Positions 1 through 37,143 of a DNA stretch of 41,315 nucleotides are shown here, one piece after another. Made by a program: the position numbers and the translations under genes. This DNA comes from a virus, in the IMG/VR virus record IMGVR_UViG_3300009081_000006, positions 1 through 41,315 of that record, one strand, 5' to 3'. The notes beneath the pieces were generated by a model. The model ran no database searches and was not told the DNA's origin. It was given only the letters and a program-made list of their open reading frames with translations. How positions within the stretch are numbered: position 1 is the first letter of the stretch; the number at the start of each line of letters is the position of its first letter.

Positions 1-82
1 GAGCGAGGTCAACGGCGACGAGCCAGTCCCCGAGCGCGAATCTGGAACCCCCGGTCGCGTCCGCGAAGTGACTGACGAACAA
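1..82. repeat. Terminal direct repeat, left copy
   Basis: Bases 1-82 are identical to bases 41234-41315. The reading frame that enters the right copy from 40536 continues without a break through the left copy to a stop at 193. This shows the window is one genome length plus an 82-base overlap. It may be a circular-assembly overlap (terminally redundant or permuted genome) or a short natural terminal repeat; the sequence alone cannot say which. Confidence 0.97.
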
Positions 83-14935: not shown

Positions 14936-15288
14936 GCGATCGCGACACTCGCCGCCCATCGGAGGCGGAGAACAATGCGTGGTTTGCGTACCGCGCGATC
15001 GCGAAGAAACAGGGACGCGAAGCCGATGAAGTCGCGTTCCGTACCGGCTGGCGGCAGGGCTGCGGGTTCACCTTCGGGGCGACCAGCAAGCTGTCGCCGG
15101 CGATTGACGCATTCGTGGCGTGGATGGACTACGTGACGTCTTGGAGCGCGCCACTCCCACCACCCCCAGGAGAACAGGAGGTCGAAGATCCCGGTCCAGC
15201 GGGCAGTTACATGACGACGGCGCACATGGACGGCGCCGACACATTGGGCACAGTAGCTAGGAAGCCTACCCAGGCAGGAGCTCAGTAA
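14932..15288 (+). CDS. Hypothetical protein, replication module
   Basis: This 118-residue protein starts in an ATGA overlap. The first 60 residues are helical and basic (ENNAWFAYRAIAKKQGREAD), with one Cys in RQGCGFTFGA. A proline stretch (PLPPPPGEQEVEDPGP) links to a polar tail. It has no recognised domain. Its stop overlaps the next ATG by one base, so it is probably co-translated with the SSB-like protein. Confidence 0.6.
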   Translation: MSDRDTRRPSEAENNAWFAYRAIAKKQGREADEVAFRTGWRQGCGFTFGATSKLSPAIDAFVAWMDYVTSWSAPLPPPPGEQEVEDPGPAGSYMTTAHMDGADTLGTVARKPTQAGAQ

Positions 15289-15941
15289 TGCCAATCCGCA
15301 TGAACAAGCCGGGCGAGAGCTCGTTCGGCATCAACATCGAAGACACCTTCGACCCGAACGACGATCACACGGTCGAACTGGTCGACATGGACGAGTTCCA
15401 GGGTGTCAGCAAGATTGACGGCAAGCCGTACACCAGCATCGTCTGGAAGTTCGCCATCTACGACACCGACGGCATCGCGTTCACCAACCTGATCGACGGT
15501 GGCGTGTTCGAGACGTGGCAGTTCTCGAGCCTGAGCCTGAGCGAGAAGTCGCAGGGTCGGGCGTGGGCGGCGGCGCTGCTCGGCAAGCCGTCGCTGACCG
15601 ACGCTGAATGCGACGCGATCGCGGAGGCGTTCGACAGTGCGCTGGTCGGCAAGCAGGCGACGGCGTCCTGGAAGGTCGAGGACGTCAACGGCAACAAGCG
15701 GCTCAAGCTGGCGCTGCTGCGTCCGCTGCGCCGTCAACGTCCTGCTCCGCCGTCTACGGCACCGAAGCCGAAGCCTGCGCCGGAAGCGCCACCGGAATTC
15801 GTCACGCCGAATCCTCCGCCGCGGTCGATGCCGACGGCGAACGGCGCTCGAGAAACGGCAGCGGAGCGCCGTGCTCGGCTCCAGGCGGAGCTCGCGGCGA
15901 TGCCCGAGGACGACGCCGATGCCGAACCCTTCAACGACTGA
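15288..15941 (+). CDS. ssb: Putative single-stranded DNA-binding protein
   Basis: This 217-residue protein has a beta-rich N-terminal ~110 residues (DDHTVELVDMDEFQGVSKID, YTSIVWKFAIYDTDGI, ETWQFSSLSLS) that fit an OB-fold. A helix (DAIAEAFDSALVG) and strands ending KRLKLALLRPL follow. Residues 145-190 are a disordered Pro/Ala linker. The C-terminus is acidic and ends EDDADAEPFND, close to the acidic, Pro-Phe-containing tip of bacterial SSB proteins that recruits partner enzymes. Domain order, tail and position in the replication module support the call; no fold search was possible. It overlaps the methyltransferase gene by 23 bases. Confidence 0.6.
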   Translation: MPIRMNKPGESSFGINIEDTFDPNDDHTVELVDMDEFQGVSKIDGKPYTSIVWKFAIYDTDGIAFTNLIDGGVFETWQFSSLSLSEKSQGRAWAAALLGKPSLTDAECDAIAEAFDSALVGKQATASWKVEDVNGNKRLKLALLRPLRRQRPAPPSTAPKPKPAPEAPPEFVTPNPPPRSMPTANGARETAAERRARLQAELAAMPEDDADAEPFND

Positions 15942-16926: not shown

Positions 16927-17120
16927 TGATCACGGACGTACAGGTGTCGCGTGCGCTGGAGCGCATGCCGATCGAGATGATGGCGCTGTTCGAGACGATG
17001 CCGGAGGACTTCCAGAGGGCGTACCTGGCGTATTGGGAAGGACGACCTGATCCGCACGGCGCGCATCGTGACACGCTGCCCGCCTTTGTGGCTGGTGTGT
17101 TCACCGGACTGCGTCGCTGA
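16926..17120 (+). CDS. Small hypothetical protein (64 aa)
   Basis: ATG 16926 overlaps the methyltransferase stop (TGATG), and the stop overlaps the next ATG by one base. The product is mostly helical (VSRALERMPIEMMALFETMP, EDFQRAYLAYWEGRP). It has no recognised family. Its tight coupling to methyltransferase and Rpf-like genes is the only clue to expression. Confidence 0.6.
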   Translation: MITDVQVSRALERMPIEMMALFETMPEDFQRAYLAYWEGRPDPHGAHRDTLPAFVAGVFTGLRR

Positions 17121-17605
17121 TGGCGATCGTGCTGGTTGCGGTTATGGCGCTAGCGCAGGTGATCTCAGACGGAGCGGAGTCGTATGAGTGGGCGCCGCCG
17201 GCGCTGCCGATTCCGGAAGAAACGGTCACGCTGGCCGACGAGGTTGGGTTGGATGCCGTTCAGCTACACGGTGCCGTAATGACCACCAGGAGCACGCCAC
17301 GCACGTACCTGGAGCATGAAGGGCTCCTGAAGCCTCCACTGCGGGCGATAGCTCCTGCGGGGCCGTCCTGGGGGCTGTGGGATCGATTGGCCCAATGCGA
17401 GAGCGGCGGCAATTGGGCGTCGAACAGCAACCCGCGCTACAAGGGCGGATTGCAGTTCGATGCGCCGACCTGGCGCAGCTACGGCGGGCTGCAGTACGCG
17501 CCGAGCGCACATCTGGCGACGAAGGCCGAGCAGATCGCCGTCGCAGAGCGACTCCGCGCCGCACGCGGACTGCAGCCGTGGCCGGTGTGCGGTCGGCGTG
17601 TTTGA
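17120..17605 (+). CDS. Secreted Rpf-like (resuscitation-promoting factor) muralytic protein
   Basis: This 161-residue protein begins with a hydrophobic signal or anchor (AIVLVAVMALAQVISDGAES), followed by a linker. Residues 85-159 match the Rpf transglycosylase/lysozyme-like domain. It has WDRLAQCESGGNW with the catalytic Glu (E94) and the first conserved Cys (C93), YKGGLQFDAPTWRSYGG, EQIAVAERLRAARG, and the closing PWPVCG with the second Cys (C157). Rpf enzymes cut peptidoglycan and are best known from Actinobacteria. That it lies among replication genes and not with the endolysin suggests use early in infection or a host-state effect rather than lysis. Those roles are inferred. Confidence 0.85.
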   Translation: MAIVLVAVMALAQVISDGAESYEWAPPALPIPEETVTLADEVGLDAVQLHGAVMTTRSTPRTYLEHEGLLKPPLRAIAPAGPSWGLWDRLAQCESGGNWASNSNPRYKGGLQFDAPTWRSYGGLQYAPSAHLATKAEQIAVAERLRAARGLQPWPVCGRRV

Positions 17606-17765
17606 ACCGGGACCGGTTATCTACATCGAGATTCCGTTGTTCGAGTTTGAGCGTCTGCACGCTGAGATCCGCGAATTGACGTCCCTGGTGCATCGCTTCG
17701 CAGAAGAGAACGCTCGCCTGCGCGCGGAGAACGAACGGCTCAGCCGTGCGCTCAGTCACTCGTAA
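17598..17765 (+). CDS. Small leucine-zipper-like protein (55 aa)
   Basis: GTG 17598 lies inside the end of the Rpf gene (eight-base overlap) and gives 55 residues. The N-terminus is FEPGPVIYIEIPLFEFERL, then a continuous amphipathic helix with heptad Leu (RELTSLVHRFAEENARLRAE, NERLSRALSHS). It is a likely coiled-coil dimer. Overlap with both neighbours (the next GTG is at 17746) supports translation. No family is recognised. Confidence 0.6.
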   Translation: MFEPGPVIYIEIPLFEFERLHAEIRELTSLVHRFAEENARLRAENERLSRALSHS

Positions 17766-18150
17766 CGGGGCGCGCTCCGCGCCGCGGCGTGGTCCGCCGG
17801 CGACGATCAAGCTCGGCGTATCCGAGACGCAGTTCCAGGAGCGCGTCAAGAAGCTGGCGCGCATGTACGGCTGGTGCGGCTGGCACGTTAGTTTCTCGCA
17901 CGGTGCCGTGACCGGCGCGCATACGCTCGGCCTGGGCGACGACCACTACGACTCGAACGGCATGCCGGACTGGATCTTCTGGAAGCCCGGCAGGCACGTT
18001 CTGTTCCGGGAGCTCAAGGCCAAAGGCAAGTATCTGAGTGTCGACCAGCGTCGGTGTCACGCGTCGTTGCGAGCCGCCGGTTGTGACGTGGACGTGTGGC
18101 GACCAGGTGACGAAGACAAGGTGATCGCGACCTTCAGCGGTGTAACGTAG
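17746..18150 (+). CDS. VRR-NUC nuclease (PD-(D/E)XK family)
   Basis: This 134-residue protein starts at GTG 17746. After a basic tail, residues 25-130 are a VRR-NUC domain: SETQFQERVKKLARMYGWCG helix, GMPDWIFW with catalytic Asp (D75), LFRELKAKGKYL with Glu and Lys (E89, K91), and DQRRCHASLRAAGCDVDVWRPGD. All three catalytic residues are present. Stand-alone phage VRR-NUC proteins are thought to cut branched DNA as Holliday-junction resolvases. It is the last gene before a terminator, next to the polymerase. Confidence 0.85.
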   Translation: MRSVTRNGARSAPRRGPPATIKLGVSETQFQERVKKLARMYGWCGWHVSFSHGAVTGAHTLGLGDDHYDSNGMPDWIFWKPGRHVLFRELKAKGKYLSVDQRRCHASLRAAGCDVDVWRPGDEDKVIATFSGVT

Positions 18151-18166
18151 CCGCAACAAAACGAGA

Positions 18167-18206
18167 AACGCCGCCCCTGTTTCTTGACCAACCAGGGCGG
18201 CGTTTT
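18167..18206 (+). terminator. Rho-independent terminator after VRR-NUC gene
   Basis: AACGCCGCCC (18167-18176) and GGGCGGCGTT (18195-18204) form a perfect 10-bp stem with an 18-base loop, followed by TTTC. It lies between the VRR-NUC stop (18150) and the polymerase start (18241). A second small hairpin (GCCCC-GAG-GGGC, around 18222-18232) sits just before the polymerase ATG and may cover its ribosome binding site. Confidence 0.8.
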
Positions 18207-18240
18207 CGGAAAGGACTCTGGCCCCGAGGGGCTTAGTCAC

Positions 18241-21200
18241 ATGAATACTACTACGACCGTTGTGGTGTCGTTCTTCCGTAACGAGACGGACGTTCGGCCC
18301 CAACCGCAAACGTTCACAATCGAAGAGCTTTTCGAGCTCCTGACGAAGCATCAGCCGCGGACGCATAAACGCCGCGGCATGTTGTGGTCGCCGTTCCTGT
18401 TCAACGGTGCGCGCAAGGGCGAGAACCTGATTGAGAGCACGCTGCTCGCCTTCGACATCGATGACGGCACGTCACCCGAGCAGGTGGAGGAATGGCTCGA
18501 GGGACGCAGCTACTTCCTGGCGTCGACGCACTCGAGCACGCCCGAGCACTGGAAGCTGCGCGTCGGGCTGGTCCTGACCGAGCCGATCCCCGCGGCGGAC
18601 TTCGCGAGCGTGTGGCATTCCGCGGTCGCGGAGCTCCTGCACGGCCACGTCGATCCGTCGACGCACGATCTGGCGCGCATGTTCTACCTGCCGACGGCGC
18701 CACCAGGCGCGGAGCCATACGCCGAGATCGCCTGGGGCGAGCCGCTGGACTGGCGATCGTTGCCACGGTGGGAGCCGCCCGAGCGACCAGCGTTGCCCGA
18801 CCTGGACGGCATCGAGGGGCTGGACGCTGGTGTCGAGCGTCGACGGGCGAAGCCGATGCTTCAGAAGTGGTGCCTGGACGTAGCGAACGCGACCCCAGGC
18901 GAGCGGCATGAAGCGATCCTGAGGCTCGGACGGGCCGCGGGCGGGCTGGTCGGGTCAGGCGCGCTGGCGTACGAAGAGGCGTATGCCGAGTTCCTGGACG
19001 CTGCGGAGGCGTGCGGCGAGGTCGCTGACCACGGTCTGCGGGACGTCGACCGCGCGATCCGTGGCGCGCTGCAATACGGCATGGACGAACCCTGGACGCC
19101 GGCACAGTTGGGTGACAGCGACGACTGGCTGACGGCGCCGAAAATCAAGCTCACCGGATCATCTGTTCCTGTTCCGCCTATGGGGATGGGAACAGGGAAC
19201 AGATCGAGTGCTCGAGGGCAACCCCCGGAGGGGGTTGGAATTTTGGACCCCATCAAGTGGCGTTCCCACCGTCAGACCGTGGATCTGCTGCCGCCCGACA
19301 TCGACTGGTTCATCGACGGCATCCTGGGCCGCGGGCTGATCACCGAGCTCGTCGCCAAGGTGAAGATGGGTAAGACGACCTTCATGCTGCAGGGCATCCG
19401 CGCCGGTATCGCCGGCGATGACGAATACTGCGGTCGCGCGGTACATGGCCCGCTGCGCGCGGCGTACGTCACCGAAGAGGGCTGGCAGACCTTCCAGATC
19501 GCGATGATGCGTTACGGGCTGAACGACCTGGTCGACAACGACGCGTTCTTCACGGTCTTCGATTTCGAGACGGAAGACGTCGACGCTAAGAAGCCGAACC
19601 TGCCGTTCGTCATCGACTCGCTGATCCGCCACGCAACCGAAGACAATGTCGACGTCGTCATCCTGGACACGCTGAGCATCATCGCCAGCCTGGACGAGGA
19701 AGACCACTCGGGGCGGGCCGCGGGCGTCATGGCGGAGGTACGGCGTCTGTCGACCGCAGGCTTCGCCGTCGGCATCCTGCGCCACAGTCGAAAGAGCGGC
19801 GGCGACGTGGGTGACGCTGGTCGCGGCTCGTCCGCGATCTCTGGCTACTGCGACATCCTGCTGCAGATCGAGCCGTTCAAGGGTGACGAGGACGCGACCA
19901 GCGCGCGGGTGATGCGGACCAAGTCACGGCTCGGCGTGTACGAGCCGCTGATGCTCGAGTTCGACAAGGCGACCGAGCGGTATTCGAGCAACGGCGCGGT
20001 CCAGTCCAGCCAGGAGCGGCTCGAAGCCGCGGTAATGAAGGCGCTGGCCGACCTGAACGCGACCAGTGAAGAGCAGGGCAAGACGTCGCTGGAGGTCACG
20101 GCGAAGAGCGGCAAGCGCAAGCAGGCGGTGACCGACATGCTCAAGACGCTGGTTGCCGAAGGCAAGGTGGCGTCGGCGTTCCGCGGCAGAACGGTTATCT
20201 ATTGGCTCAAGCTGGTCATTCACCTGACGCATGAGGCGGCGGAAGAATCTGTTCCCGGAACTGCGGAACAGCCGGAACAGGTTGTACAGGAGCCGCCGCG
20301 AAACCCCCTTACGGGGGTTTCGGTTGAAACGCTATCTGTTCCCGAAAATCTTCTCCCGGAGGGAGAGAAACGGGAACAGATAACCAAGCGAAAGGCGCCG
20401 ACGGCGGAGGCGATCGCCAAAGCCGCGGAAAAGAAGGCGGCGCTGGAGCTCGCGCGGCTCGAGGCGGCAGACGCCGCGGCGCCGACGCTGGAGTACCTGA
20501 CGGTGCTGACCGACCAGGATCTCGTCGCGGCGATCGCGCGGCTCAACACGGTCGCATGCGCGCTGGACACAGAGACGACGGGCTTGAACGCGAAGCGCGA
20601 CAAGTTGCGGACGATCAACCTGTCCGACGGGCAGACGCATGTCGTCATCGACGCCTGGGGCATCACCGACTGGACGCTGCTGCAGTCCTACCTGGACCAG
20701 GTCGGCACGGTCAGCATGCACACGTACCTGTTCGACCTGGCGTTCCTGGATGTGATCGGCATCAGGGTTAATCCCGACAAGGTGTATGACGTCCGCACCG
20801 CGGCAATGGTCCTGGAGTCGAAGGAAGACTGGACGGATTACCGTCTGCAGGGCATCGCCAAGCGTCACCTGGCCGAGCACGTCTCGAAGGCCGAGCAGAA
20901 GCGGGGGTGGGACGCGCCGGTGTTGCGCCACGCCAAGCTGGCGTACGCCGCGGAGGACGCGCGGGTGACGCATGCCGCGGCGATCGCCGTCGCATCCAAG
21001 CTCCAGCAGGACGCCGACGTCGACGGGCTGTGGACGTGCCTGGCGCTCGAGCGTGACGTCCAGGCAGCGACCTGGTGGCTTGCCTCCGCGGGAGCGCCCG
21101 CCGATCGCGACGTCATGCGCGAAGCCGTGGCGGAACAGGAGGCGAAGCTGGCCGAGCATCTCGAGATTCTGAATGCGACCGCTGGCGAAGCCACCGTCAA

Positions 21201-22188
21201 CTGGCGCAGTCCGAAGCAGGTGCTGCCTATCCTGATCGAGCGTGGTCTGGATGTTGAGTCGACCAGTGAAGGGGCGCTGATGGATACGGTGATGGGCACG
21301 GAGGCGCCGATCCCGCTGGTCAGTGCGCTGCTGAGTTACCGTTCGGCCAGCGCGTGCCTGGGCCTGCTACGCAGAGCGCAGAGCAGCATCCAGGACGATG
21401 GGCGGATCTATGCGTCGTTCAATCCGATCGGCGCGCAGACGGGCAGGACGTCCTGCTCCGACCCGAACCTGCAGAACCTGCCGCACGATACCCGAGCTCG
21501 CGAGGCGATCCGCCCGCCGACGGGACGCGTCTTCGTCCGTGCCGACTACTCGCAACTGCAGCTTGTCATCGCGGCCTGGATCGCGCAGGACGCCGAGATG
21601 CTGAAGGTGCTCAACGACCCGCACGGCGACGTCCACCAGCGCACCGCGGAAGCGGTCGGCTGCACCAGGCAGCAGGCGAAGGCGGTCAATTTCGGGTTCC
21701 TGTTCGGCGCCGGCTCGGAGACGTTCCAGCGTGAGCAGCGGAAGAACGGCGTGTACCTGACCGAGCAGCAGGCGTGGCGGTATCGCGAGACGTTCATGCG
21801 GACGTACCGCGGCATCCGCTCCTGGCACAAGTCGCTGAGTGATTGGGGCACGGAGGAAGTGATCTACGATCCGTCGGGCTCTGGACGTCGCCGTGCGGCA
21901 GTCTTCAGCAAGAACGTCAAGGCCAACACGCCCGTCCAGATGGTCGAAGCGCACGGTTTCAAGCGTGCCCTGCAGGTGCTCTACAATAGCCGACATGAAG
22001 CACCGTCGGCGCGGCTCGTCATGATGGTTCACGATGAGCTCATCGCTGAGTGCGATGCCGACGACGTGGAGCGGACGCAGAAGTGGCTGTGCAAGGGCAT
22101 GCTCGAGCCGATGCAGGCGCTGCTGCCAGGCGTCACCGTCCGTGTCGACGTCAAGGTGACCAGGAGCTACGCCGACAGTGACAAGTAA
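18241..22188 (+). CDS. Primase/ATPase/3'-5' exonuclease/family A DNA polymerase fusion
   Basis: This single open frame of 1,315 residues combines the core of a replisome. Residues 1-185 look like an archaeo-eukaryotic-type primase: F71-D-I-D-D, STHSS (95-99), and R146 in DLARMFYLP. Residues 345-560 are a RecA-like ATPase of the AAA_25/RepA kind, with Walker A AKVKMGKTT (372-380) and Walker B VVILD (D476). Residues 590-660 are a winged-helix-like tail. Residues 750-930 are a DEDDy exonuclease with D776 and E778, D832, Y902 and D906. Residues 1000-1315 are the family A polymerase: TGRTSCSDPNLQNLP (1067-1081), motif A D1102-YSQLQLV, motif B R1143/K1147/F1151 and motif C H1264-DE. I use ATG 18241. 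The linkers at 300-345 and 660-720 have atypical codons and repeats. Motif A has Gln where Glu is usual. Confidence 0.88.
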   Translation: MNTTTTVVVSFFRNETDVRPQPQTFTIEELFELLTKHQPRTHKRRGMLWSPFLFNGARKGENLIESTLLAFDIDDGTSPEQVEEWLEGRSYFLASTHSSTPEHWKLRVGLVLTEPIPAADFASVWHSAVAELLHGHVDPSTHDLARMFYLPTAPPGAEPYAEIAWGEPLDWRSLPRWEPPERPALPDLDGIEGLDAGVERRRAKPMLQKWCLDVANATPGERHEAILRLGRAAGGLVGSGALAYEEAYAEFLDAAEACGEVADHGLRDVDRAIRGALQYGMDEPWTPAQLGDSDDWLTAPKIKLTGSSVPVPPMGMGTGNRSSARGQPPEGVGILDPIKWRSHRQTVDLLPPDIDWFIDGILGRGLITELVAKVKMGKTTFMLQGIRAGIAGDDEYCGRAVHGPLRAAYVTEEGWQTFQIAMMRYGLNDLVDNDAFFTVFDFETEDVDAKKPNLPFVIDSLIRHATEDNVDVVILDTLSIIASLDEEDHSGRAAGVMAEVRRLSTAGFAVGILRHSRKSGGDVGDAGRGSSAISGYCDILLQIEPFKGDEDATSARVMRTKSRLGVYEPLMLEFDKATERYSSNGAVQSSQERLEAAVMKALADLNATSEEQGKTSLEVTAKSGKRKQAVTDMLKTLVAEGKVASAFRGRTVIYWLKLVIHLTHEAAEESVPGTAEQPEQVVQEPPRNPLTGVSVETLSVPENLLPEGEKREQITKRKAPTAEAIAKAAEKKAALELARLEAADAAAPTLEYLTVLTDQDLVAAIARLNTVACALDTETTGLNAKRDKLRTINLSDGQTHVVIDAWGITDWTLLQSYLDQVGTVSMHTYLFDLAFLDVIGIRVNPDKVYDVRTAAMVLESKEDWTDYRLQGIAKRHLAEHVSKAEQKRGWDAPVLRHAKLAYAAEDARVTHAAAIAVASKLQQDADVDGLWTCLALERDVQAATWWLASAGAPADRDVMREAVAEQEAKLAEHLEILNATAGEATVNWRSPKQVLPILIERGLDVESTSEGALMDTVMGTEAPIPLVSALLSYRSASACLGLLRRAQSSIQDDGRIYASFNPIGAQTGRTSCSDPNLQNLPHDTRAREAIRPPTGRVFVRADYSQLQLVIAAWIAQDAEMLKVLNDPHGDVHQRTAEAVGCTRQQAKAVNFGFLFGAGSETFQREQRKNGVYLTEQQAWRYRETFMRTYRGIRSWHKSLSDWGTEEVIYDPSGSGRRRAAVFSKNVKANTPVQMVEAHGFKRALQVLYNSRHEAPSARLVMMVHDELIAECDADDVERTQKWLCKGMLEPMQALLPGVTVRVDVKVTRSYADSDK
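19161..19237. repeat. Inverted repeats in linker 1 of the polymerase gene
   Basis: ATCTGTTCCTGTTCC (19161-19175) pairs with an inverted copy at 19188-19204 that has one extra G. This gives four copies of CTGTTCC/GGAACAG. It is followed by a perfect hairpin, CAACCCCC-GGA-GGGGGTTG (19219-19237), and AATTTTGG. The segment is in frame and lies between the primase-like and ATPase domains. Its codons (GTT, CCT, AGA, AGT, ATT) differ from those of the flanks. Confidence 0.85.
20247..20382. repeat. Inverted repeats in linker 2 of the polymerase gene
   Basis: Five copies of CTGTTCC/GGAACAG lie at 20249, 20265, 20274, 20336 and 20373. The outer pair TATCTGTTCCCG (20333-20344) and CGGGAACAGATA (20371-20382) is a perfect 12-bp inverted repeat that encloses a TCTCCC-GGA-GGGAGA hairpin. 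A 10-bp hairpin with loop TTAC (20299-20322) lies in the same block. All of it is in frame, between the ATPase/winged-helix part and the exonuclease. Confidence 0.85.
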
Positions 22189-23074
22189 GCCAGCATCGCT
22201 GCGGGAGCCGCACTGGTCTGCCTCCAGGTTCATGCTCTTCGAGCAGTGCCCGAGGTTGTACAAAGACCGCTACATCGACGGCATCGCCACGGAACCGAGT
22301 CTGGCGATGCTGTTTGGATCAGCCGTTCACACTGCTCTGGAGGCACTGCACCAGGGGCAAAGGGGGACGTGTCTTACCGCTGCAAGCAGCGGCGAAGACC
22401 ACTACCGCAGCGCCAGGGCGCTGTACGCAGAGCGGTTCGATGCGATGAACGCGCGGCTCGAAGAGCTCGGACTGTGCGCGCCGGCGTCGCTGTACGCCGA
22501 GGGTCTGCGGATGCTGAACCTGGTCGAAGACCTGAATCTGAATGCCGATGGTCGCAGCGAAGCTGAACGCTGGTTCACGCTGCCGACCAAGTCGACGTGG
22601 GGTCTGCCGACGATCGGCGCGGTTGACCTGTGGTCGCCACCGTGGTCGGCGCATGGCGCGGTGGTGTGGGATTTCAAGACGACGGTCGGCGCCTGGGGCG
22701 CGGAGCGCGCGGCGCGCGAACGCTGGCAACCGATGCTGTACGCGTGGGCCTACAAGCGTGCCTATGACGTCATCCCGACGTTTCGTTACCTGGTCCTGAG
22801 CCGCGCTAGCGGAACGTCCCAAGTCTTCGACCGCGGCTGGTCGCAACGTGAGTGGCGGGAGGACTTCAGCGCGCTGCACTTCCAGGCCGAGGCGATTGCA
22901 GAAGCGATCGACCAGGGGCAGTTCGACTGTTCCCGAGGTCACGGAACGTGTCTCGAATGCGGCGAGCCGTACGGCCACGATCACGTCTGCGATGACGCGC
23001 CGCGGCCATCGAAAATCAGGCTGGTCAAGAAGCACGGTCAGACCTGGGTTCAACCTGCGCTGATCGAGGCGTAA
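22178..23074 (+). CDS. RecB/Cas4-like PD-(D/E)XK exonuclease
   Basis: This 298-residue protein starts at GTG 22178, overlapping the polymerase end by 11 bases. It opens with SASRFMLFEQCPRLYKDRYI, the usual start of RecB-type PDDEXK_1 nucleases. The active site is GAVDLW (D150) and VVWDFKTT (D165, K167), followed by QPMLYAWAYKRAY, where a conserved Gln-Tyr helix is expected. The C-terminal region has cysteines (CSRGHGTCLECG, HDHVCDD) that could bind zinc or, with C24, an iron-sulphur cluster as in Cas4/AddB relatives. It probably resects DNA ends during replication or recombination. The cluster type is uncertain. Confidence 0.8.
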   Translation: MTSKPASLREPHWSASRFMLFEQCPRLYKDRYIDGIATEPSLAMLFGSAVHTALEALHQGQRGTCLTAASSGEDHYRSARALYAERFDAMNARLEELGLCAPASLYAEGLRMLNLVEDLNLNADGRSEAERWFTLPTKSTWGLPTIGAVDLWSPPWSAHGAVVWDFKTTVGAWGAERAARERWQPMLYAWAYKRAYDVIPTFRYLVLSRASGTSQVFDRGWSQREWREDFSALHFQAEAIAEAIDQGQFDCSRGHGTCLECGEPYGHDHVCDDAPRPSKIRLVKKHGQTWVQPALIEA

Positions 23075-28674: not shown

Positions 28675-31600
28675 ATGCCCGGCACCCTGCTCCGCGACGA
28701 CTGGCAGCAGGAGATCGAGAAAGAGCTCCGAGCTCACGCGCGCAACCTGCAGCAGCAGGCGCAGCAGGCCGTAAGCGGCGTCCAGAGCGTCTTCCAGCAG
28801 CCGACGCCGCAGGCGCCAGACATCCAGCAGATACAGCAGGAGCTCCAGCGGCACGCGCAGCAAGTTGCTGAGCCCGTCCTGCAGTTCGGCCAGCAGGCGG
28901 CGACTGCCGCGCCACAAGTCGCACAGCAGGCGCAGCAGGGCGTCGTCCAGTTCGGCCAGCAACAGCAGCAGAACGTAGCCGACGTACAGCGTGAGCTCCA
29001 GGATTACGTCGGCCAGATACAGTTTGGTCAGCCGCCTGTCGTGCCTCAACAGCAGGCGGCGCCCGTCGCTGTTACCGCGGGCGAGCAGCCGCCGTCGGAC
29101 TATGCGGGGCCGACCGTCGCCGCCGCCCCGGTGCAGCCTGGGCCTTACAAGGGCGGCGATCAAAATTCGTTCATCCAGGCGATGGCGCCAGTCGCGCAAG
29201 CCTGGGAGGAACGGACGGGCATTCCCGCCGAGTACCTGTTGGCGGTCAACGGCAGCGAAAGCAATTGGGGCAACGCACCGGGCAACATGCTGTTCGGGAT
29301 CAAGAAGCGCCCGGGCCGCGCGTCGACGGGTCCGCAGGCCACCTGGGAGGCCGGCCAGGGGGCGACGACTGCCGAGTTTTCGGCCTACGCCACGCCCGAC
29401 GAGGCGTACGCCGACTTCGTTGACCTGATCTCGCACGGTCGCTACGCGCCAGCGTGGCAGCAGTTCCAGCAGGACCACAATCCCGATGCGCTGTTCCAGA
29501 ACCTGAACAGGGCGGGTTACGCGACCGACCCGATTTGGGGCAACAAGATCGGCCAGATTGCCTCGCGCATCCGCGGCCAGGTCGAGCAGGCGGTCCAGCC
29601 GTTCGTCAGGGGCGCGCAAGCCGTCGCTGCGGCGTTGCCGCACTCGGAGGAACCCGCCAGCGCGACCGACAACCTGGGCGACAAGTGGAAGACGCAGTTC
29701 GGGTTCAAGTCGATCTATACGGGTTCGTATAGGACCGGTACGCCGCACCGCGGCATCGACATTGTGCCGCAGAAGGGCGGCATCGGCACGCCGATCGAGG
29801 CGTTCCACCCGGGCACGGTGACGTTGATCCAGCGCGACACTGGCGGCGCTGGTGGCCTGATGGTGTACGTCAAGGACGCCGACGGGCTGACGCATGCGTA
29901 CATGCATCTGCAGAAGACCGCGGAGGGGCTGAAGGTCGGAGACACGGTTAACCGTGGGACGCCGATCGCGTACATGGGCGAGTCGGGTACCGAAGGCTCA
30001 CCGCACCTGCACTACGAGGTCCGCCGCGGTCTGAGCGGCGATCCGCTCGATCAACTCATCGATCCGCGCCCGTTCATGATTGGCAGACCAGGCGCGCCGA
30101 CGGACCAGCAAGCGGCGACCGTAGCGGCGCCGACGCCGATCGATGTACCACGTCCCGCGGCGCGGCAACCGCTCATCGCAGACTCGATGCAGCCCACGGT
30201 TTTCGGGGAGCAGGGCCGCAGGCCAGCGTTCGAGGTTGTGCAGGATGTCGCCGGCGAAGCCCGCCGAGCGGCGCAGGAGGCCGCGGAGCGGGTCATCCAG
30301 CAGGCGCAGGAGGTCGGACGCCAGATTGGGCCGAATCTGGGCTTCGATGACGAAGAGCTCCGCCGTCGGCAACAGGCGCTGGTGACCAACCCGCCACCGT
30401 CGATCGCGGCGAAGATGGCCGAAGCGGAGGCGGCGTATGGTGCGCCGATCGAGCAGCGGCGTCAGCCAGGGGTGCTCGATGTCGCCGGCGCCATCCTGGG
30501 CGGGGCGGGCTCGCCAACGACGCCTGGTCCGCTGACGGGGACGCAAGCCGAGGTTCGCGAGCGCATCAACCAGGAGATCGAGCAGCACCCCGCCTTCCAG
30601 AACTGGCCGGTGCCGGTCGCCGCAGGGGTCGGCATCGAAGCGACCAAGATGTTGCTGGACCCGATGACGTATGCGACCTGGGGTCCGCTGCTGCGCGGCG
30701 GACGCATGGCCGGCGCCGCGGTCGAAGCGGCTCTGCCCGGCGGCATCCTGGGCGGTCGGGTGGGCGGTGAGCTCCTGGGCAAGCTGACCGCTTCAGGCGT
30801 CGCCAACGGGCTGCAGAACGCCATGTACGAAATTCAGAAGCCGAATCCCGATCCGTTCGAGGTCGGGCTGCAATTCGCGGCAGGCGCGATCGGCGGACCG
30901 GTGATCGAGCTCGGCGCACCCGCGCTGACGCGAGCGGGGCAGCGCATCCTCCAGGATGCCGAGCCACTGCTCCGCTCGCGGCAGCGTGGTGAGCTCGATC
31001 TCGGGCTGATCACCAGCGGTCAGCCTACGCCGCGTACCGCTGCGGCGGCGCCGACGGCACCCGACGTCCTGCACGGTCAGGCAGTGCCACGCGCGGGCTA
31101 CGAGCCCGGCACGCCAGAGGCGACCGCCGAGGACTTCCTGGCAAACGCGGCTCGAGCGCAGGGCACGCCGCGACCGACGCTCTCGGGCGCCGACATCGGC
31201 AATCTGCCGGGTATGCGGGGGACGCTGTCCGGCGGGCTGGACGAGGTCCGCGAGGCGATCGAGGTCGGCCTACCCGCGGCGCGCTGGTATCAGGAGATGG
31301 TCGGCCAGATCAAGGCCGACACCGGCCAGGACATCAACCCGCGCGAGGCGGCGGTCCTGATGGGCGCCTTTGGCGGCAACGCTGGTGTGCCGCCCAACTA
31401 CCACGCCATGCTGAGCGTGTTCGACGCCATGCGCCGCGCGAATCCCGACCTGACGGGTCTGGAGAACATGACCCAGGCACAGGTACAGGCGACGCAGGCG
31501 TTCAAGGATGTCCAGGCGCTGGTTCGCGCCGACAAGATCTACGGCGACGACGACATGCTGGCGCGCGTGATGCGCGGCTACCGAACGGGCGAGATTCCCG

Positions 31601-34600
31601 TTCCGAGCGGCGCGAAGCTGTCCAGCTACACCCAGGATTTCCTGGCGGCGCTGAATGAGGCGTACGCGCCGTACTCGACGCAGGACGTGTGGCAGGGACG
31701 TCTGTTCGGCGCTCGGCCAGATATCCAGGGCGGCAACGGTCTGCCGAACGTCTCACAGAGCGACCAGGCGTACCGCACCATGCACGCGCTGACGAACTGG
31801 ATCGCACGCGAGATGCATCTGTCGCCCGACCAGGCACAGGCCGCGGGCTGGACTGTGTTTCGCGCGCTGTGGAACGACCCGGTCATCGGGCCCGAGCTCC
31901 GCTTCAACCGCATCTCGCTGAGCGACGCGATCAAGCAGGGGCAGCGGTCGGGCGTCCTGGACCCGCAGAAGATGCGCGCTGGCGGTCTGGCGGAAGTCAC
32001 CGCGCCGCGCGGCAGCGGTAACGCCTGGGTCGACAAGATCCACGATGTTCGCGATCGCATCCGCGCCGACGGCAGCTACAACACGCCCCCGCCGCCGTCC
32101 GCGACCGCGGTCAACGAGTGGGGGCTGTACCACCCGTCGATCCAGTCGGCGGCGCAGCAGCGGGCCACGCTGGACCCGAGCGGTTTCCAGTACGGCACGG
32201 TCAGCGGGCCGAAGACGGGCATCCCGCGACCGGTCGGCAACGTCCAGGCCGCCGGCCTGCGCGAGCTCGCGTTAGGCGACCAGCCGGTTCTGCGGGTGCC
32301 GAGGGGCACCGTGGATGTCGATCCAGCGACGGGCAAGATTCCGTGGCTGGCGCCCGAGCACACGGTGCAGCAGATCGGCGGACGCACGTACGTCAGCGTG
32401 GTCGGTATCGGGGACGAAGCGGCGCAGGTGATCGGACGCCGTCTCGGCGCCGATCGCTTTAACCACGCCGATCCGACGTCGACCACCGCGGGTGGGCTCG
32501 CCATTAAAGGCGCTACCGATCCCGATCGGCTGGTGGGTGCGCTGCAGGCGGCTGGCCTGCCCGTCCTGCGTGCGGGTAGCGACATTCGCGTGCCGCTGAT
32601 CGAGGGCCGTATCGCGGGCTTGACGCGCCAGGTACAGCGGGTGCTCTCGAGCGAAGGCTTGGGCGGCACGCTCAACGACTACACTGGAGCGACCCATGCC
32701 GTTGAATCCGCAAGAGCGGGCCGAACTGGACGCGCTCGGGGTGTCGCCCCTGGCGGAGGACGACCCGATCTACCAGCAGGGGACCGTATTCGTGCTGCCG
32801 TCTTCCGAGACGAGCCCCTCCCCCCAGGCCGAGCCGAACCCCCGGGCACCGGGCTTCGTCGCGCCCGGGGCGAGGCAGACGTCGGATTCGGCGTCGATCT
32901 CGGCGGAGCCGCTCTCGGCGGATACGCAGGCTACGCCGCTACCCCCGAGGACGCCGACTGGTCCGAACGAGCCCGCAACGTCGGACTCGGAGCTACCGCC
33001 GGCCTACTAGGCGCCCGCGGCATCCGCGGCGGAGGCGCTCGTCTCGCTGCGATAGCAGGACGTCCTGGAGCCGAAGGGTTTCGGGCGCCGTCGGCGCGAC
33101 CGACGCTCGAAGACCAGTTGCTGCAGGCGCGGACGCGTGGTCCGCGCGAGCCAGGTCCACCGCGCGAGCCGCGGCGTCTAGGCGAGGTCCACTCGAACAA
33201 CTACCTGTTGAACGAGGCGCGCGAAGGCGAGCCCGCCATGACCGACGACGAGCTCATGGCGTACTACGACGAGCTCGAGCAGCGGCTCGAAGACGTCAAG
33301 GCGCGCGCCGATGCGATCGATGAGTCGCTGCGGAATCCCACGGAGAAGGTGTATCGACCGTCCTGGGCGGCGGGTTACACCAACGAGGCGCTGATCGAAA
33401 TCGCGCGCCGCAACGGCGCCAACGCCTACGACGAAGCGTGGGACCAGGCGATCGGATTCGATCCTGGCTCGGGCGAGGTCAAGTATGGCGTGGGGGAGAG
33501 CGGTTTGCGCGGAGTGGGCCGCAGGCAGCAGTCTCCGACCGAGCTCCGCGCCGAGCTCCGTTCGCTGCAGCAGGAAGAGGCCGACATTCTGGCCGCAGCG
33601 GATCAGCTTGGCTCGTCGCCAGCCGGCGCACGTTACGTGCGCCGTCCAGTCGCCGGCGAGGCGTTCTCGGGTGCGGATCTGCCGTTTGACGCGGGCTCGC
33701 AGGAGGCAAGCCCAAGCGGGCCGTTCGCGACGGAGGCGGGAGGTCCGTCGGGCGTCCTGGCGGACGACATCGTCACCCGCAACGGCACGTCGAAGCGTCC
33801 GAGCGGATTGCGGAACCTGTGGGGCGAGCCCGGCCAGGTGGTTGGTCAGACCGAAGGCCGCATAGGTCGCGCGGTCGCAGACGCCGAGGCGGCGACCAGC
33901 GGTCCGCCGTCGGAGGCGACGCTGCGGGCCATGCCGAACCTGGACGCGCTGTTGAAGGAAGAAGTGCCCGATGAGATTCGCGTGCAAATCCAGCGTGCGG
34001 TCGAAGACAACTCCGAGCTCTTCGAGGCGTACAACCAGGGGCGCATTTCGCATGCGAGCCTGACCGACGATCTGGCGCGCAAGGTCGGCATGTCGACCAA
34101 GGACTGGCTTGCGACCAAGGTCGGCCAGGGCTTCAGTACGCCCGAGCTCGTCGCGCTGCAGGCCGCGGCGGTCGACGCGCAGCACGGCATCTACGACATG
34201 GGGCGCGAAATCCTGGCCCGCCAGGGCGGCGTCGACGGGCTGAGTCCCGAAGAGGTCGCGTTCGCGTTGCGGAACCTGTTCGATACCAACGGACTGCTGG
34301 CTGTCGCCCGCGGTGCTCGCAGCACCCAAGGGCGGAGCCTGAACGCGCTGAAGCAGCGGTTCGATCGCACGCTGGCGAGAGGCATTACCGGCGCCAACGA
34401 GAAGCGTGCCGCGGACAAAGCGGCGGCGCAAGCCCGACGGGCGGCGACCAAGGCGACGCAGTTGCTCAACAAGGGCCGCGACCTGGAGCAGGAAGCGGCG
34501 CAGGCCGTCGGCAAGGCCAAAGAGGCAGGACTGCCCAGGAACATCTGGCAGCAGATCGAAGAGGCGTACGCCGAGCTCGATCGCTACAACGCCATGTCGC

Positions 34601-37143
34601 TGCATGAAAAGGGCGATGAGTTTAATCGGCTGGCGAAGGAACGTGCCGACCGTGCCGCTGCTCGCAAGGCCAAGGTGCGCGAGGCTCCGCAGGAGCTCCT
34701 GAGCGCGCTCAAGGCCGAGCTTGCTGCCGAGCAGAAGATCTTTGCCGGGCGGAAGAACACCTGGGAGACAATGGCGTTTTGGGACTCGAAGGCGGCGGAG
34801 ATCGCGGCTGAGAAACGGGCTGCGTTCCGTGGCGGGCTGTACCTGGAGCAGGCGCGCAAGAGCGCCGCGCTAGCGGCGAAGAACGAAGAGAAACGCGCGG
34901 CGATGGCGTGGGACGAGGCGTCGCGCCGCCAGGGCAAGATGACGCAGCGCGCGACCACGCTGCTGGAATCGATCGGCGGCGTCGAGCCGTCTAAAGAGCT
35001 CCTGAAGTCATTCGTCCAGGCGATCGCATCGGGCGATCCGATGGTCGCGGCCAAGTTCATGAAGGGGCTGCACCCGCAGCGCAGCGGTTTCGCCAACTTT
35101 GTGGAGATCGCGCGCAACTCGAACATCATGCGTCTGGCCGGCATGCTGTCCGCGACGGCGACGCACATCATCAACATGGGCGGCAGCATCGTTCAGGTGC
35201 CGCTCGAAGTCGGTACGCATGCGCTAACCGTGGCTATCGACATCCCGCGCGCGGCTATCACCGGTGGCGAGCGGCAAGCCTATGCAGCCGAGCTCGGGCC
35301 GATGCTGCGGGGCTGGTGGGATAACGCGCCAGATGCCCACGGCAAACGCTTCGGCATGGCGTCGGCGCTGCCCGACATGCTGCGTATCCTGCGCGGCGAC
35401 GTCAAAGGCGCGCTCCAGGATTACGGGCAGACTGACGTCGCGCAAATGATGCGGACGGGCATCAGCCCGCGCGAGACGGCAGACCTGAGCACGATCCGAC
35501 CAGGCTTCCGATCGAGCGACTTGCCAGTGGTCGGCTACCCGCTCGGCAAGCTGCCGGGCAACGTCGCGGAGCGGGTCATCGATCCTGCGATCGAGATGCC
35601 GCTGCGGGCGCTGCAGGCCGAAGACCTGGCCTTCCGCGGTGCGGCGATGGGTATGCACGCGCAGCGTGTGGCGATCCGTCAGGCGACCCGCGAGGGCTTC
35701 CGCGGCGCGCGCCGTACGGGCCGCGCGAACAACATCGTCGCCAATCTCGAGGAATATCCCGAGCTCTACCAGGAAGTAGCTGAAGCAGCGGCGCGCATGG
35801 TCTTCCAGGAGCGGCGGACCGTGCCTGGCATGTCGAACGTGCGCCTGCCTGGTACGGCGGGCGAGGCGGGTGGCGTGCTGGTCAGCCAGGTCATCCCGTT
35901 CCGCAAGACGCCGGTCAACATCACCGCGCAGGGGCTCGGGCTGTCGCCGTTCGGCGTCGCGGGCGTTATGGAAGCCGTAGGCGAGCGCGCCGGTATCAAG
36001 GCCAGGGTCGCCAGCGGGGAGCTTCCAGCCTCGCGGCTCGGCAAGCAGACGCTGCTGGCGCAGGAGCGTGCGTCGAGGGCGGTCATCGGCTCGGCCATCC
36101 TGGGCACGGCGTACCTGTGGGGGACGCAGCAGGACGAGCAGGGCAAGCCGAAAGGCACGCTGACGGCGATGTACGACGAGGACGAAGCGTCGACCTACCC
36201 GCAGGGGTGGCGCGCGTGGTCGATGCGCCAGGAGAACCCGGCCAACGGCGAGATCGTGTACGTGCCGCTGCAGAATTTCGGCGCCGCGGGCGTGCCGATG
36301 GCGATGGCGGCGATCCTGGCCGACGCGGCGCGGCGCGGGAAGACGGTCGTCTCGGACGAAAAGGAGATGGGCCGCGCGATCGCCGGCATCGGACGCTATG
36401 CACTGGACACGCCGTTCCTGCAAGGTCTGTCCGATGCCGTCGAGCTCTTCCACGATCCGGGGCGTGCGGGCACCAAATTCGTGGAGGGGCTGGTCGGCAG
36501 CTACGGTCCGTACTCGGGCATGGGGCGCCAGATCCAGCGTGCCTACGGCGTGGCGAGCAGGAACCCGCGCGAAGGCTGGCTGATGATGCTGGACGCGCTC
36601 GAGGCGAACTACCCGGGTCTGAGCGGCAACGTGCCCGAGGCGACGACGGCGCTAGGCGAGCCGCGCACGCCAGGGGCGACCGGTTTCGGCGCGCTGGTCG
36701 GTCGCTACGACATCGAGCGCGACACGCCGACGCTCGAGGCGCTGCGGCTGGCCGACGTCAACGTGCCGCGCGAGACGCGCGTGCTGTCGACCGGTGGCGG
36801 CTACGGCGTGGAGCTCACCGAGGCGGAGCGCGACACGCTGAAGCGCGCCCGCGGTCAGGCGATCATCGCGGAGGTCGCTAAGGAGCGGGCCCGACCGCGG
36901 ACGGCGAGATCTGAGCGGGTGCTGCGGACTGCCGATCCGGGATCGGCGGAGTACCGTGCGGCGCTCGAAGATTTTAACGCGGCGATGCAGGGGGCGGTCA
37001 GCGACGCCGCTCGATGGGCGAACCAGGATTTCGAGAAGCAGCTTGGCAAGGCCGAGATCAAGCGTCGCGAAAAGCAGACCCGCGAGGTCGAACAGCGGTA
37101 TCTCGGGACGCCGAGTCTGCCAGTGGGGGAGCTCAATCCGTGA
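28675..37143 (+). CDS. Giant internal virion protein with glucosaminidase-like and M23 peptidase domains
   Basis: This 2,822-residue protein starts at ATG 28675. Residues 1-150 are Gln-rich helical repeats. Residues 160-310 look like a FlgJ/lysozyme-type glycoside hydrolase: AEYLLAVNGSESNWGN with candidate catalytic E195, then FGIKK and a YATPDEAYADFVDLI segment. Residues 340-465 are an M23 peptidase: H358-RGID362, HAYMH (407-411), and HLHYE (444-448). Residues 840-1110 resemble domains of large 'polyvalent' phage proteins. Residues 1500-2130 are long coiled coils, and residues 2150-2200 and 2460-2490 have hydrophobic stretches. It should be ejected into the cell and open the wall, like T7 gp16. 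Near residues 1341-1400 codon use moves to another frame (see 32696). Confidence 0.82.
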   Translation: MPGTLLRDDWQQEIEKELRAHARNLQQQAQQAVSGVQSVFQQPTPQAPDIQQIQQELQRHAQQVAEPVLQFGQQAATAAPQVAQQAQQGVVQFGQQQQQNVADVQRELQDYVGQIQFGQPPVVPQQQAAPVAVTAGEQPPSDYAGPTVAAAPVQPGPYKGGDQNSFIQAMAPVAQAWEERTGIPAEYLLAVNGSESNWGNAPGNMLFGIKKRPGRASTGPQATWEAGQGATTAEFSAYATPDEAYADFVDLISHGRYAPAWQQFQQDHNPDALFQNLNRAGYATDPIWGNKIGQIASRIRGQVEQAVQPFVRGAQAVAAALPHSEEPASATDNLGDKWKTQFGFKSIYTGSYRTGTPHRGIDIVPQKGGIGTPIEAFHPGTVTLIQRDTGGAGGLMVYVKDADGLTHAYMHLQKTAEGLKVGDTVNRGTPIAYMGESGTEGSPHLHYEVRRGLSGDPLDQLIDPRPFMIGRPGAPTDQQAATVAAPTPIDVPRPAARQPLIADSMQPTVFGEQGRRPAFEVVQDVAGEARRAAQEAAERVIQQAQEVGRQIGPNLGFDDEELRRRQQALVTNPPPSIAAKMAEAEAAYGAPIEQRRQPGVLDVAGAILGGAGSPTTPGPLTGTQAEVRERINQEIEQHPAFQNWPVPVAAGVGIEATKMLLDPMTYATWGPLLRGGRMAGAAVEAALPGGILGGRVGGELLGKLTASGVANGLQNAMYEIQKPNPDPFEVGLQFAAGAIGGPVIELGAPALTRAGQRILQDAEPLLRSRQRGELDLGLITSGQPTPRTAAAAPTAPDVLHGQAVPRAGYEPGTPEATAEDFLANAARAQGTPRPTLSGADIGNLPGMRGTLSGGLDEVREAIEVGLPAARWYQEMVGQIKADTGQDINPREAAVLMGAFGGNAGVPPNYHAMLSVFDAMRRANPDLTGLENMTQAQVQATQAFKDVQALVRADKIYGDDDMLARVMRGYRTGEIPVPSGAKLSSYTQDFLAALNEAYAPYSTQDVWQGRLFGARPDIQGGNGLPNVSQSDQAYRTMHALTNWIAREMHLSPDQAQAAGWTVFRALWNDPVIGPELRFNRISLSDAIKQGQRSGVLDPQKMRAGGLAEVTAPRGSGNAWVDKIHDVRDRIRADGSYNTPPPPSATAVNEWGLYHPSIQSAAQQRATLDPSGFQYGTVSGPKTGIPRPVGNVQAAGLRELALGDQPVLRVPRGTVDVDPATGKIPWLAPEHTVQQIGGRTYVSVVGIGDEAAQVIGRRLGADRFNHADPTSTTAGGLAIKGATDPDRLVGALQAAGLPVLRAGSDIRVPLIEGRIAGLTRQVQRVLSSEGLGGTLNDYTGATHAVESARAGRTGRARGVAPGGGRPDLPAGDRIRAAVFRDEPLPPGRAEPPGTGLRRARGEADVGFGVDLGGAALGGYAGYAATPEDADWSERARNVGLGATAGLLGARGIRGGGARLAAIAGRPGAEGFRAPSARPTLEDQLLQARTRGPREPGPPREPRRLGEVHSNNYLLNEAREGEPAMTDDELMAYYDELEQRLEDVKARADAIDESLRNPTEKVYRPSWAAGYTNEALIEIARRNGANAYDEAWDQAIGFDPGSGEVKYGVGESGLRGVGRRQQSPTELRAELRSLQQEEADILAAADQLGSSPAGARYVRRPVAGEAFSGADLPFDAGSQEASPSGPFATEAGGPSGVLADDIVTRNGTSKRPSGLRNLWGEPGQVVGQTEGRIGRAVADAEAATSGPPSEATLRAMPNLDALLKEEVPDEIRVQIQRAVEDNSELFEAYNQGRISHASLTDDLARKVGMSTKDWLATKVGQGFSTPELVALQAAAVDAQHGIYDMGREILARQGGVDGLSPEEVAFALRNLFDTNGLLAVARGARSTQGRSLNALKQRFDRTLARGITGANEKRAADKAAAQARRAATKATQLLNKGRDLEQEAAQAVGKAKEAGLPRNIWQQIEEAYAELDRYNAMSLHEKGDEFNRLAKERADRAAARKAKVREAPQELLSALKAELAAEQKIFAGRKNTWETMAFWDSKAAEIAAEKRAAFRGGLYLEQARKSAALAAKNEEKRAAMAWDEASRRQGKMTQRATTLLESIGGVEPSKELLKSFVQAIASGDPMVAAKFMKGLHPQRSGFANFVEIARNSNIMRLAGMLSATATHIINMGGSIVQVPLEVGTHALTVAIDIPRAAITGGERQAYAAELGPMLRGWWDNAPDAHGKRFGMASALPDMLRILRGDVKGALQDYGQTDVAQMMRTGISPRETADLSTIRPGFRSSDLPVVGYPLGKLPGNVAERVIDPAIEMPLRALQAEDLAFRGAAMGMHAQRVAIRQATREGFRGARRTGRANNIVANLEEYPELYQEVAEAAARMVFQERRTVPGMSNVRLPGTAGEAGGVLVSQVIPFRKTPVNITAQGLGLSPFGVAGVMEAVGERAGIKARVASGELPASRLGKQTLLAQERASRAVIGSAILGTAYLWGTQQDEQGKPKGTLTAMYDEDEASTYPQGWRAWSMRQENPANGEIVYVPLQNFGAAGVPMAMAAILADAARRGKTVVSDEKEMGRAIAGIGRYALDTPFLQGLSDAVELFHDPGRAGTKFVEGLVGSYGPYSGMGRQIQRAYGVASRNPREGWLMMLDALEANYPGLSGNVPEATTALGEPRTPGATGFGALVGRYDIERDTPTLEALRLADVNVPRETRVLSTGGGYGVELTEAERDTLKRARGQAIIAEVAKERARPRTARSERVLRTADPGSAEYRAALEDFNAAMQGAVSDAARWANQDFEKQLGKAEIKRREKQTREVEQRYLGTPSLPVGELNP
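32696..33010 (+). CDS. Overlapping +1-frame ORF inside giant gene (104 aa)
   Basis: ATG 32696 has TGGAG seven bases upstream and opens a 104-residue frame. It begins MPLNPQERAELDALGVSPLA, continues YQQGTVFVLPSSETSPSPQA, and closes at 33010. From 32696 to about 32860 this frame has the GC-ending codons usual here, while the giant gene's frame reads Arg/Gly/Pro-rich with rare CGA, GGA, CTA and CCA. After ~32870 the giant frame looks normal again. Either this is a real overlapping gene, or translation begins here and slips -1 (a TCCCCCC run is at 32820-32825) to make a separate C-terminal product. An assembly indel is also possible. Confidence 0.5.
   Translation: MPLNPQERAELDALGVSPLAEDDPIYQQGTVFVLPSSETSPSPQAEPNPRAPGFVAPGARQTSDSASISAEPLSADTQATPLPPRTPTGPNEPATSDSELPPAY

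Follow-up and report, generated by a model that had tools for sequence, protein, structure and literature searches.

A predicted one-chain phage replicase joining an AEP-type primase, a RecA-fold ATPase and a family A exonuclease-polymerase, with exchange of modules inside a single reading frame

Introduction

Several systems are known in which the enzymes of DNA replication are made as one chain. The PREX protein of Plasmodium combines primase, helicase and polymerase; it is nuclear-encoded, imported and then cleaved into three enzymes (PMC9631997). Pyrovirus OS3173/TOSV, a tailed-phage-like virus of ~37-42 kb, encodes a PolA polyprotein of 1,606 amino acids (aa) (PMC7689252). For GP55 of lactococcal phage 1706, a protein of 1,317 aa, four activities have been shown in vitro; it works uncut, and the phage otherwise possesses only a single-stranded DNA-binding protein (SSB) (PMC12205980). 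Here, we describe a gene at positions 18241-22188 of the 41,315-nt virus record IMGVR_UViG_3300009081_000006, which was analysed over its whole length and is referred to below as the window. Its 1,315-aa product consists of an archaeo-eukaryotic primase (AEP), a helical domain, a RepA/KaiC-type RecA-fold ATPase, a winged helix, a DEDDy exonuclease and a family A polymerase, with the catalytic motifs intact. Residues are numbered on this protein, and L001-L018 denote related contigs.

The window protein is like PREX in that a primase, a helicase-type motor and a proofreading family A polymerase stand on one chain, and the PREX polymerase is its second-best match among PDB sequences. PREX has a DnaG/gp4-type primase-helicase, with a TOPRIM primase and a DnaB/Twinkle-type helicase preceding PolA. 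Unlike in PREX, TOPRIM and DnaB_C were not detected in the window protein by Pfam, and it would thus be a protein that works like PREX without being a member of that group. With Pyrovirus it shares a 3'-5' exonuclease-PolA preceded by an N-terminal primase/helicase region, and a RecB-like nuclease gene adjoins (PMC7689252), whereas the DUF927 N-terminus of Pyrovirus was not found in the window protein by Pfam. In Pyrovirus, the helicase forms part of the chain in certain species but stands apart in others, and neither an AEP nor AAA_25 is described there (PMC7689252). GP55 also unites helicase, AEP primase, 3'-5' exonuclease and polymerase on a chain of nearly equal length, but its polymerase belongs to family B and its helicase precedes the primase, whereas the window polymerase is of family A and the AEP is N-terminal.

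Among phages with shorter chains, the VapE-associated AEP primase-helicases (Brevibacillus Emery gp96, Streptococcus Javan630) possess a homologous AEP with 21-31% identity and invariant motif residues. In Emery and Adelaide, however, the AEP is joined to a VapE-like helicase domain (PF05272) and not to a RecA-type ATPase, and in VapE-associated AEP phages the polymerase, where seen, is a separate gene. Pseudanabaena phage Pam2, the best phage polymerase match, has a primase (gene 126), an AAA_25 ATPase (gene 125) and PolA (gene 120) in one cluster, but as separate genes. T7 gp4 and the NrS-1 primase-polymerase carry primase and helicase on one chain, as is the case here, but they lack a fused family A exonuclease-polymerase. 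An earlier note on this DNA, made from the sequence alone, had taken the fusion to be unusual. This holds for the isolate-phage loci that we inspected (Pam2, Quenya, Adelaide, NatCom_991), where the parts are separate genes, but the idea of a one-chain replicase is not without precedent, as PREX, the Pyrovirus polyproteins and GP55 demonstrate. In the literature covered, mostly open-access papers and abstracts, we found neither an AEP, RecA-type ATPase, exonuclease and PolA on one chain nor a mosaic exchange of such modules.

Results

An unbroken frame encodes all modules

Translation and comparison of the open reading frames (ORFs) revealed that the plus-strand frame 18241-22188 comprises 1,315 codons without an internal stop and is the longest ORF of the region. 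Each module has a coding-type GC content by codon position, with a third-position GC of 0.77-0.92. The modules are arranged as follows:

18241..18780, plus strand: AEP-type primase domain, residues 1-180 (PHROG match, invariant motifs, AF2/Foldseek/VIA-align)
18826..19089, plus strand: helical domain, residues 196-283 (predicted helices, moderate pLDDT; family assigned by position only)
19288..19875, plus strand: RecA/RepA/KaiC-fold ATPase, helicase candidate, residues 350-545 (Pfam AAA_25, AF2, VIA-align)
20008..20220, plus strand: winged-helix-like segment, residues 590-660 (AF2 secondary structure; weak PDB profile matches to winged-helix regulators)
20494..21030, plus strand: DEDDy 3'-5' exonuclease, residues 752-930 (Pfam PF01612, invariant residues)
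21073..22185, plus strand: family A DNA polymerase, residues 945-1315 (Pfam PF00476, NF011539, PDB sequence matches)

The gene is identical in L001, a separate IMG/VR record, as part of 12,847 bp of complete identity. Seven further contigs (L002, L003, L005, L006, L007, L017 and L018) likewise have all modules in one uninterrupted frame, of 1,312-1,348 codons, and in L004, L008 and L009 the gene is cut by the contig ends. L002 and L003 are 99.9% identical over 10.7 kb. Since L017 and L018 are close to each other, as are L005 and L006, we count the seven contigs as four to five distinct lineages. A split version of the gene was not found among the close relatives. The single uninterrupted frame that the earlier note had read is therefore confirmed in relatives with the same fusion, and neither the window frame nor theirs contains a stop or frameshift between domains. 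The ATG at 18241 is a better start codon than the upstream TTG at 18184, because the latter sits within an inverted repeat and because the N-terminus aligns from its first residues with L002 and phage AEP proteins. This GC-rich inverted repeat (18166-18206), which is followed by TTTT, lies just 5' of the replicase gene and is likely the terminator of the preceding gene.

The N-terminal module has an AEP fold

A PHROG primase profile matches residues 40-160 (E 4.5e-15). AEPs are defined by the motifs hhhDhD/E (I), sxH (II) and hD/E (III) (PMC5862659), and the corresponding residues of the window protein are D72-x-D74, S95-T-H97 and D138, accompanied by R58, R107 and R146; motif III, V137-D138, was placed by order and alignment rather than by a metal-bound structure. 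In an alignment of 51 sequences (A9), which comprises two fusion proteins and otherwise the N-termini of phage AEP proteins, residues D72, D74, S95-T96-H97, R107, D138 and R146 are invariant. Two Vibrio phage homologues have SSP at the motif II position, and a query with the Vibrio-type N-terminus yielded no further homologues. As a search of PDB sequences with the N-terminal profile did not return an AEP, structure prediction was needed for this module. The AF2 model, computed from the 51 sequences, has a mean pLDDT of 68, with values of 83-96 at residues 61-140 and above 80 in most blocks of residues 60-180. Its sole Foldseek match below 0.001 is 6zp9, the AEP domain of the S-2L PrimPol (E 3.1e-6), to which VIA-align superimposes 139 residues with a Z-score of 8.8 at 3.7 A; further AEP matches are RepB' (Z 7.2), CAPP (Z 6.5) and mycobacterial Prim-PolC. 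The model thus supports an AEP primase-polymerase fold, and the module would be expected to synthesise primers. These results agree with the primase motifs (F71-D-I-D-D and R146) that the earlier note had pointed out, and prediction of the N-terminal region, which it had proposed, led to the AEP primase-polymerases. Residues 196-283 appear to occupy the place of the PriCT/helix-bundle domains of AEP primases.

The ATPase, exonuclease and polymerase modules retain their motifs

Pfam AAA_25 matches residues 351-520 (E 1e-13). The ATPase motifs comprise Walker A at 372-380 with K378, E412/E413, the Walker B residue D476, H515 and R528. In eight relatives K378, E412/E413, D476 and H515 are invariant, in accordance with Walker A, the motif 1a Glu, Walker B and the motif 3 His, and R528 is a candidate arginine finger only. 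The AF2 model of this module (residues 334-666, pLDDT 79) has a RecA/RepA/DnaB fold, as anticipated from Walker A and D476 in the earlier note, which had also recognised the exonuclease and polymerase motifs described below.

In the C-terminal part, Pfam DNA_pol_A_exo1 (PF01612) matches residues 754-912 (E 3e-17), and the exonuclease residues D776 and E778 (DxE), D832, and Y902 and D906 (YxxxD) are invariant in the relatives. DNA_pol_A (PF00476) matches residues 960-1311 (E 9e-51). Polymerase motifs A (D1102-YSQLQ), B (R1143-K1147-F1151-F1155) and C (H1264-D1265-E1266) are in place, with both catalytic Asp residues present, and the catalytic residues are invariant in the relatives. The best NCBIfam model is NF011539 (PRK14975 exonuclease/polymerase; 2.3e-98), at 330 bits, which is under the model cut-off of 640. 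The nearest solved structures by sequence are 8jrb (2.6e-42) and the apicoplast PREX polymerase (5.8e-33). The usual steric-gate Glu at the end of motif A, present in 8jrb, is replaced by Q1107, and the motif B Tyr of 8jrb by F1155, in 7/7 aligned members; the Glu and the Tyr are common in family A and are not required for membership. Judged from sequence, Q1107 and F1155 (window 21538-21708, residues 1100-1156) could affect nucleotide discrimination.

Primase and ATPase modules are exchanged within the frame

What is new here is that the chain is modular within one frame, as its primase and ATPase parts have been exchanged. The exchanged cassette is bordered by two linkers:

19090..19275, plus strand: residues 284-345 (linker 1), a hypervariable stretch that bounds the exchanged cassette on the left
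20221..20475, plus strand: residues 661-745 (linker 2), a hypervariable stretch that bounds the exchanged cassette on the right

In L005, L006, L007, L017 and L018 a Prim-Pol domain replaces the N-terminal AEP; PF09250 matches L005-L007 and L018 with E values of 1e-21 to 3e-25, and L017 was assigned by alignment. These N-termini share ~20% identity with the window AEP, whereas the exonuclease/polymerase parts of the same relatives are 61-72% identical to those of the window. Motif I of the Prim-Pol domain (L005 7155-7800; also L006, L007, L017 and L018) reads VDVAPDS, that is AxD instead of the usual DxD, in 5/5 sequences.

The ATPase was replaced independently of its flanks. The window and L002 are 96% identical in the AEP, 91% in the exonuclease and 90% in the polymerase, but only 58% in the ATPase; likewise, L005 and L006 are 99% identical in the primase, 99% in the exonuclease and 97% in the polymerase versus 57% in the ATPase. 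Third codon positions in both pairs are mostly 63-100% identical in the flanks and ~50% within the cassette, and the cassette boundaries common to both pairs lie near residues 290-320 and 700-725. The exonuclease-polymerase tree supports the window with L002 (100/100) and L005 with L006 (96/99), whereas the ATPase tree rejects both clades (p 0.0146 and p 0.0257, respectively), formal values that are weakened by the long branches of L006 and L007. The contrast in identity is stronger evidence for a swap than the tree p values. Taken together, replacement of the ATPase cassette by recombination between the same two linkers in two pairs is well supported by the sequence comparisons. A second short block of low identity to L002 is found at window 21058-21195 (residues 940-985) within the polymerase region, which is otherwise ~90% identical; third-position identity falls to 23% near residue 955.

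None of the isolate phages has the complete chain: 2,168/50,697 records match the window protein and 0 are covered over at least 80% of it. The Prim-Pol-type chain P0005 likewise gave 0 phage records, and P0003 0 plasmids, covered at this level, a test that would miss a PolA fused to an unrelated primase. In isolate phages with separate genes, the relative of the N-terminal module is a primase, in line with the identity proposed in the earlier note.

Both linkers contain palindromes

Each linker of the window gene contains a palindrome, and a further element precedes the start codon:

19219..19237, unstranded: palindrome CAACCCCCGGAGGGGGTTG in linker 1 (synonymous-codon null P=0.0125)
20299..20322, unstranded: palindrome CGAAACCCCCTTACGGGGGTTTCG in linker 2, the longest perfect short-loop hairpin of the genome (synonymous-codon null P=0.0045)
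18222..18231, unstranded: CCCCGAGGGG element just before the ATG, which also precedes the start in L002

The RNA of the CGAAACCCCCTTACGGGGGTTTCG palindrome folds with -20.3 kcal/mol (z -2.2). For perfect hairpins with a loop of 3-8 and arms of 8 or more, the genome-wide count is six, versus 8 expected by chance, and one of them lies in each replicase linker. Linker 2 of L009 and both linkers of L004, L005, L006, L017 and L018 contain similar palindromes, whose core and loop are often the same at the two sites within a given virus (L006, L004, L017). In other members the synonymous-codon null gave P values of 0.0035-0.2. Each single P value is thus modest, and the weight lies in the repeated pattern. 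Of 2.9 million viral contigs, only 4 contain the exact 19-mer CAACCCCCTAYGGGGGTTG, each of them a member of the fusion-replicase family, and among the 172 loci examined AACCCCCN(3-4)GGGGGTT occurs only in the replicase gene. Two simple causes were discarded. Conservation of the linker peptide does not account for the palindromes, since the same DNA is read in different frames (SNPLKGVS and QPPLRGV in L017, ATPFGGR and QPPTGV in L005) and synonymous redraws seldom make a hairpin. Nor is there a genome-wide enrichment of GC palindromes, as C4-G4 short-loop motifs are rarer than in shuffled sequences (5 vs 18).

One might speculate that the palindromes are exchange sites. They would then act as recombination sites that allow the helicase module, and in the case of linker 1 the primase too, to be swapped while the frame is kept, so that parts of the replisome evolve as plug-ins; we put this forward tentatively and regard it as rather doubtful. 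The nearest idea is that of Arbiol and colleagues, who in 2010 reportedly described how T4-type phages shuffle modules at stem-loops, the units being entire genes and not domains. Two observations speak against a role as exchange sites: L002 has a swapped cassette and yet, like L007, lacks C5/G5 palindromes, and in the swapped pairs divergence starts before and ends after the palindromes, which may be passengers. Both would be expected if the palindromes were RNA or DNA control elements, for example an attenuator, a translational pause or a protein site, and the swaps arose by rare illegitimate recombination in tolerant linkers. We give this explanation an even chance. It fits with the stability of the RNA hairpins (-16 to -22 kcal/mol) and with the similar element before the start codon, whereas the same core and loop in both linkers of L006, L004 and L017 suggests an exchange between two sites, and the long U-run of intrinsic terminators is absent after the hairpins. 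As a cause of exchange, palindromes near its boundaries are at any rate a specific and testable proposal for domain shuffling inside a reading frame.

Discussion

We consider it likely that the gene encodes a phage replicase on one tethered chain, with an AEP primase, a RepA-like ring motor, an exonuclease and PolA as semi-independent modules that recombine at their linkers. In such a replicase, the ATPase would form a ring moving along the single-stranded DNA of the fork, and the N-terminal AEP would lay primers, which the C-terminal exonuclease-polymerase, held on a long flexible linker, would extend and proofread. The ring would thereby carry several tethered primases and polymerases. Recombination at the two linkers has swapped modules between related phages with one frame kept: the primase, which is a VapE-associated AEP in some members and a Prim-Pol in others, and more than once the ATPase cassette. 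The paired palindromes are possibly places or by-products of these exchanges. The description in the earlier note of something close to a one-protein replisome stands as far as the domain assignments are concerned; the replisome function would follow from these domains, and a neighbouring gene probably codes for an SSB-like protein.

Some points weigh against a tethered replicase of this kind. Confidence in the AEP model as a whole is moderate (mean pLDDT 68), and with AxD at motif I the primase of the Prim-Pol relatives could be altered or could use an upstream Asp. The chain could also be cleaved, as PREX is. It would then be a polyprotein that is cut in its two long Pro/Gly-rich linkers into a primase, a helicase and an exonuclease-polymerase working apart. 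In favour of this, processing turns the single PREX chain, with the same activities, into three enzymes (PMC9631997). The linkers here, 60-85 residues long, are of low complexity and hypervariable, and free swapping is expected of modules that need no mutual contact. We nevertheless consider a polyprotein unlikely, as neither a conserved cleavage motif in the linkers nor a protease was seen, PREX cleavage follows a plastid import that has no counterpart here, and GP55 is active uncut (PMC12205980).

The fold of the ATPase fails to separate a helicase from KaiC-like or recombinase-like ATPases. In VIA-align, KaiC ranks first (Z 19.2), tied with RepA of RSF1010 (18.5) and with DnaB and T7 gp4 (18.1), and sequence-only PDB matches, to FlaH and RepA, are weak. 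The module might thus be a RecA/KaiC-like clamp, loader or remodeller, with unwinding left to strand displacement by the polymerase or to a host helicase. KaiC and FlaH as top fold matches would be in agreement with this, as would the fact that a separate helicase gene was not recognised in the genome, which makes host help possible. However, RepA, DnaB and T7 gp4 match about equally well, and a phage primase joined to a RecA-type motor is typically a primase-helicase, in keeping with a match to phrog_239. Furthermore, GP46 of phage F13, a RepA-related AAA_25 ATPase that falls into this broad group and has the same set of motifs, acts in vitro as an ATP-dependent 5'-3' helicase (PMC8965321). 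Although the fold itself is no proof, a helicase is the most likely role of the modelled ATPase, because its fold resembles those of RepA and DnaB and its motif set is that of this helicase, and we think a role other than unwinding improbable. That separate genes were merged by assembly or annotation is hardly credible, even for DNA of metagenomic origin, because L001 is identical and the frame is unbroken in seven further contigs, most of them from other samples.

If this replicase works as one chain, one-chain replicases would extend from family B (GP55) to family A polymerases in a tailed phage, and this organisation therefore probably arose more than once. Related exonuclease-polymerases are joined in nature to two primase families and several ATPases, and such natural domain chimaeras can be used to ask how a tethered primase, ring motor and polymerase are coupled. 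They are also a possible source of enzymes for primer-free DNA amplification.

Genome and neighbouring genes

Window positions 1-82 and 41234-41315 form an exact 82-bp direct terminal repeat. Because the ends share this repeat, the genome is probably complete, circular or terminally redundant, and about 41.2 kb in size. Tailed-phage genes in the window code for a major head protein, a large terminase, a tail fibre and an endolysin. Three genes near the replicase are of interest for replication:

15288..15941, plus strand: candidate single-stranded DNA-binding protein (50% identity to the L018 homologue; acidic C-terminus)
17746..18150, plus strand: VRR-NUC-type nuclease gene just upstream of the replicase (PHROG 93 endonuclease 3.2e-14; PF08774 1.6e-4, just under the curated cut-off)
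22178..23074, plus strand: RecB-like nuclease gene of the PD-(D/E)XK type, which overlaps the replicase 3' end (Pfam PF12705 2.8e-18)

The 15288-15941 product ends in ..DDADAEPFND and its L018 homologue in ..DDDDPPF, which resembles bacterial SSB tails. This suggests that it is probably an SSB-like protein; Pfam, PHROG and PDB sequence searches gave no support for an SSB. Pfam searches of the whole genome for DnaB_C, Helicase_C and SSB returned no match, and scans of the larger ORFs with Pfam and/or PHROGs pointed to no further polymerase, primase or helicase. Large products of 346, 701, 657, 658 and 373 aa remain unnamed, and the replicase is thus the only recognised replication enzyme. A scan of genome contigs found two distant polymerase loci, one of which (L019) is an ordinary bacterial PolI, and no prophage or host link. 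A gene in the replication region (17120-17605) encodes PF06737, a transglycosylase-like domain that occurs in the resuscitation-promoting factors of actinobacteria and hints at an actinobacterial host. Lastly, a giant virion protein is the probable product of the 2,822-aa ORF at 28675-37143, in which glucosaminidase and M23 peptidase domains lie close to the N-terminus.

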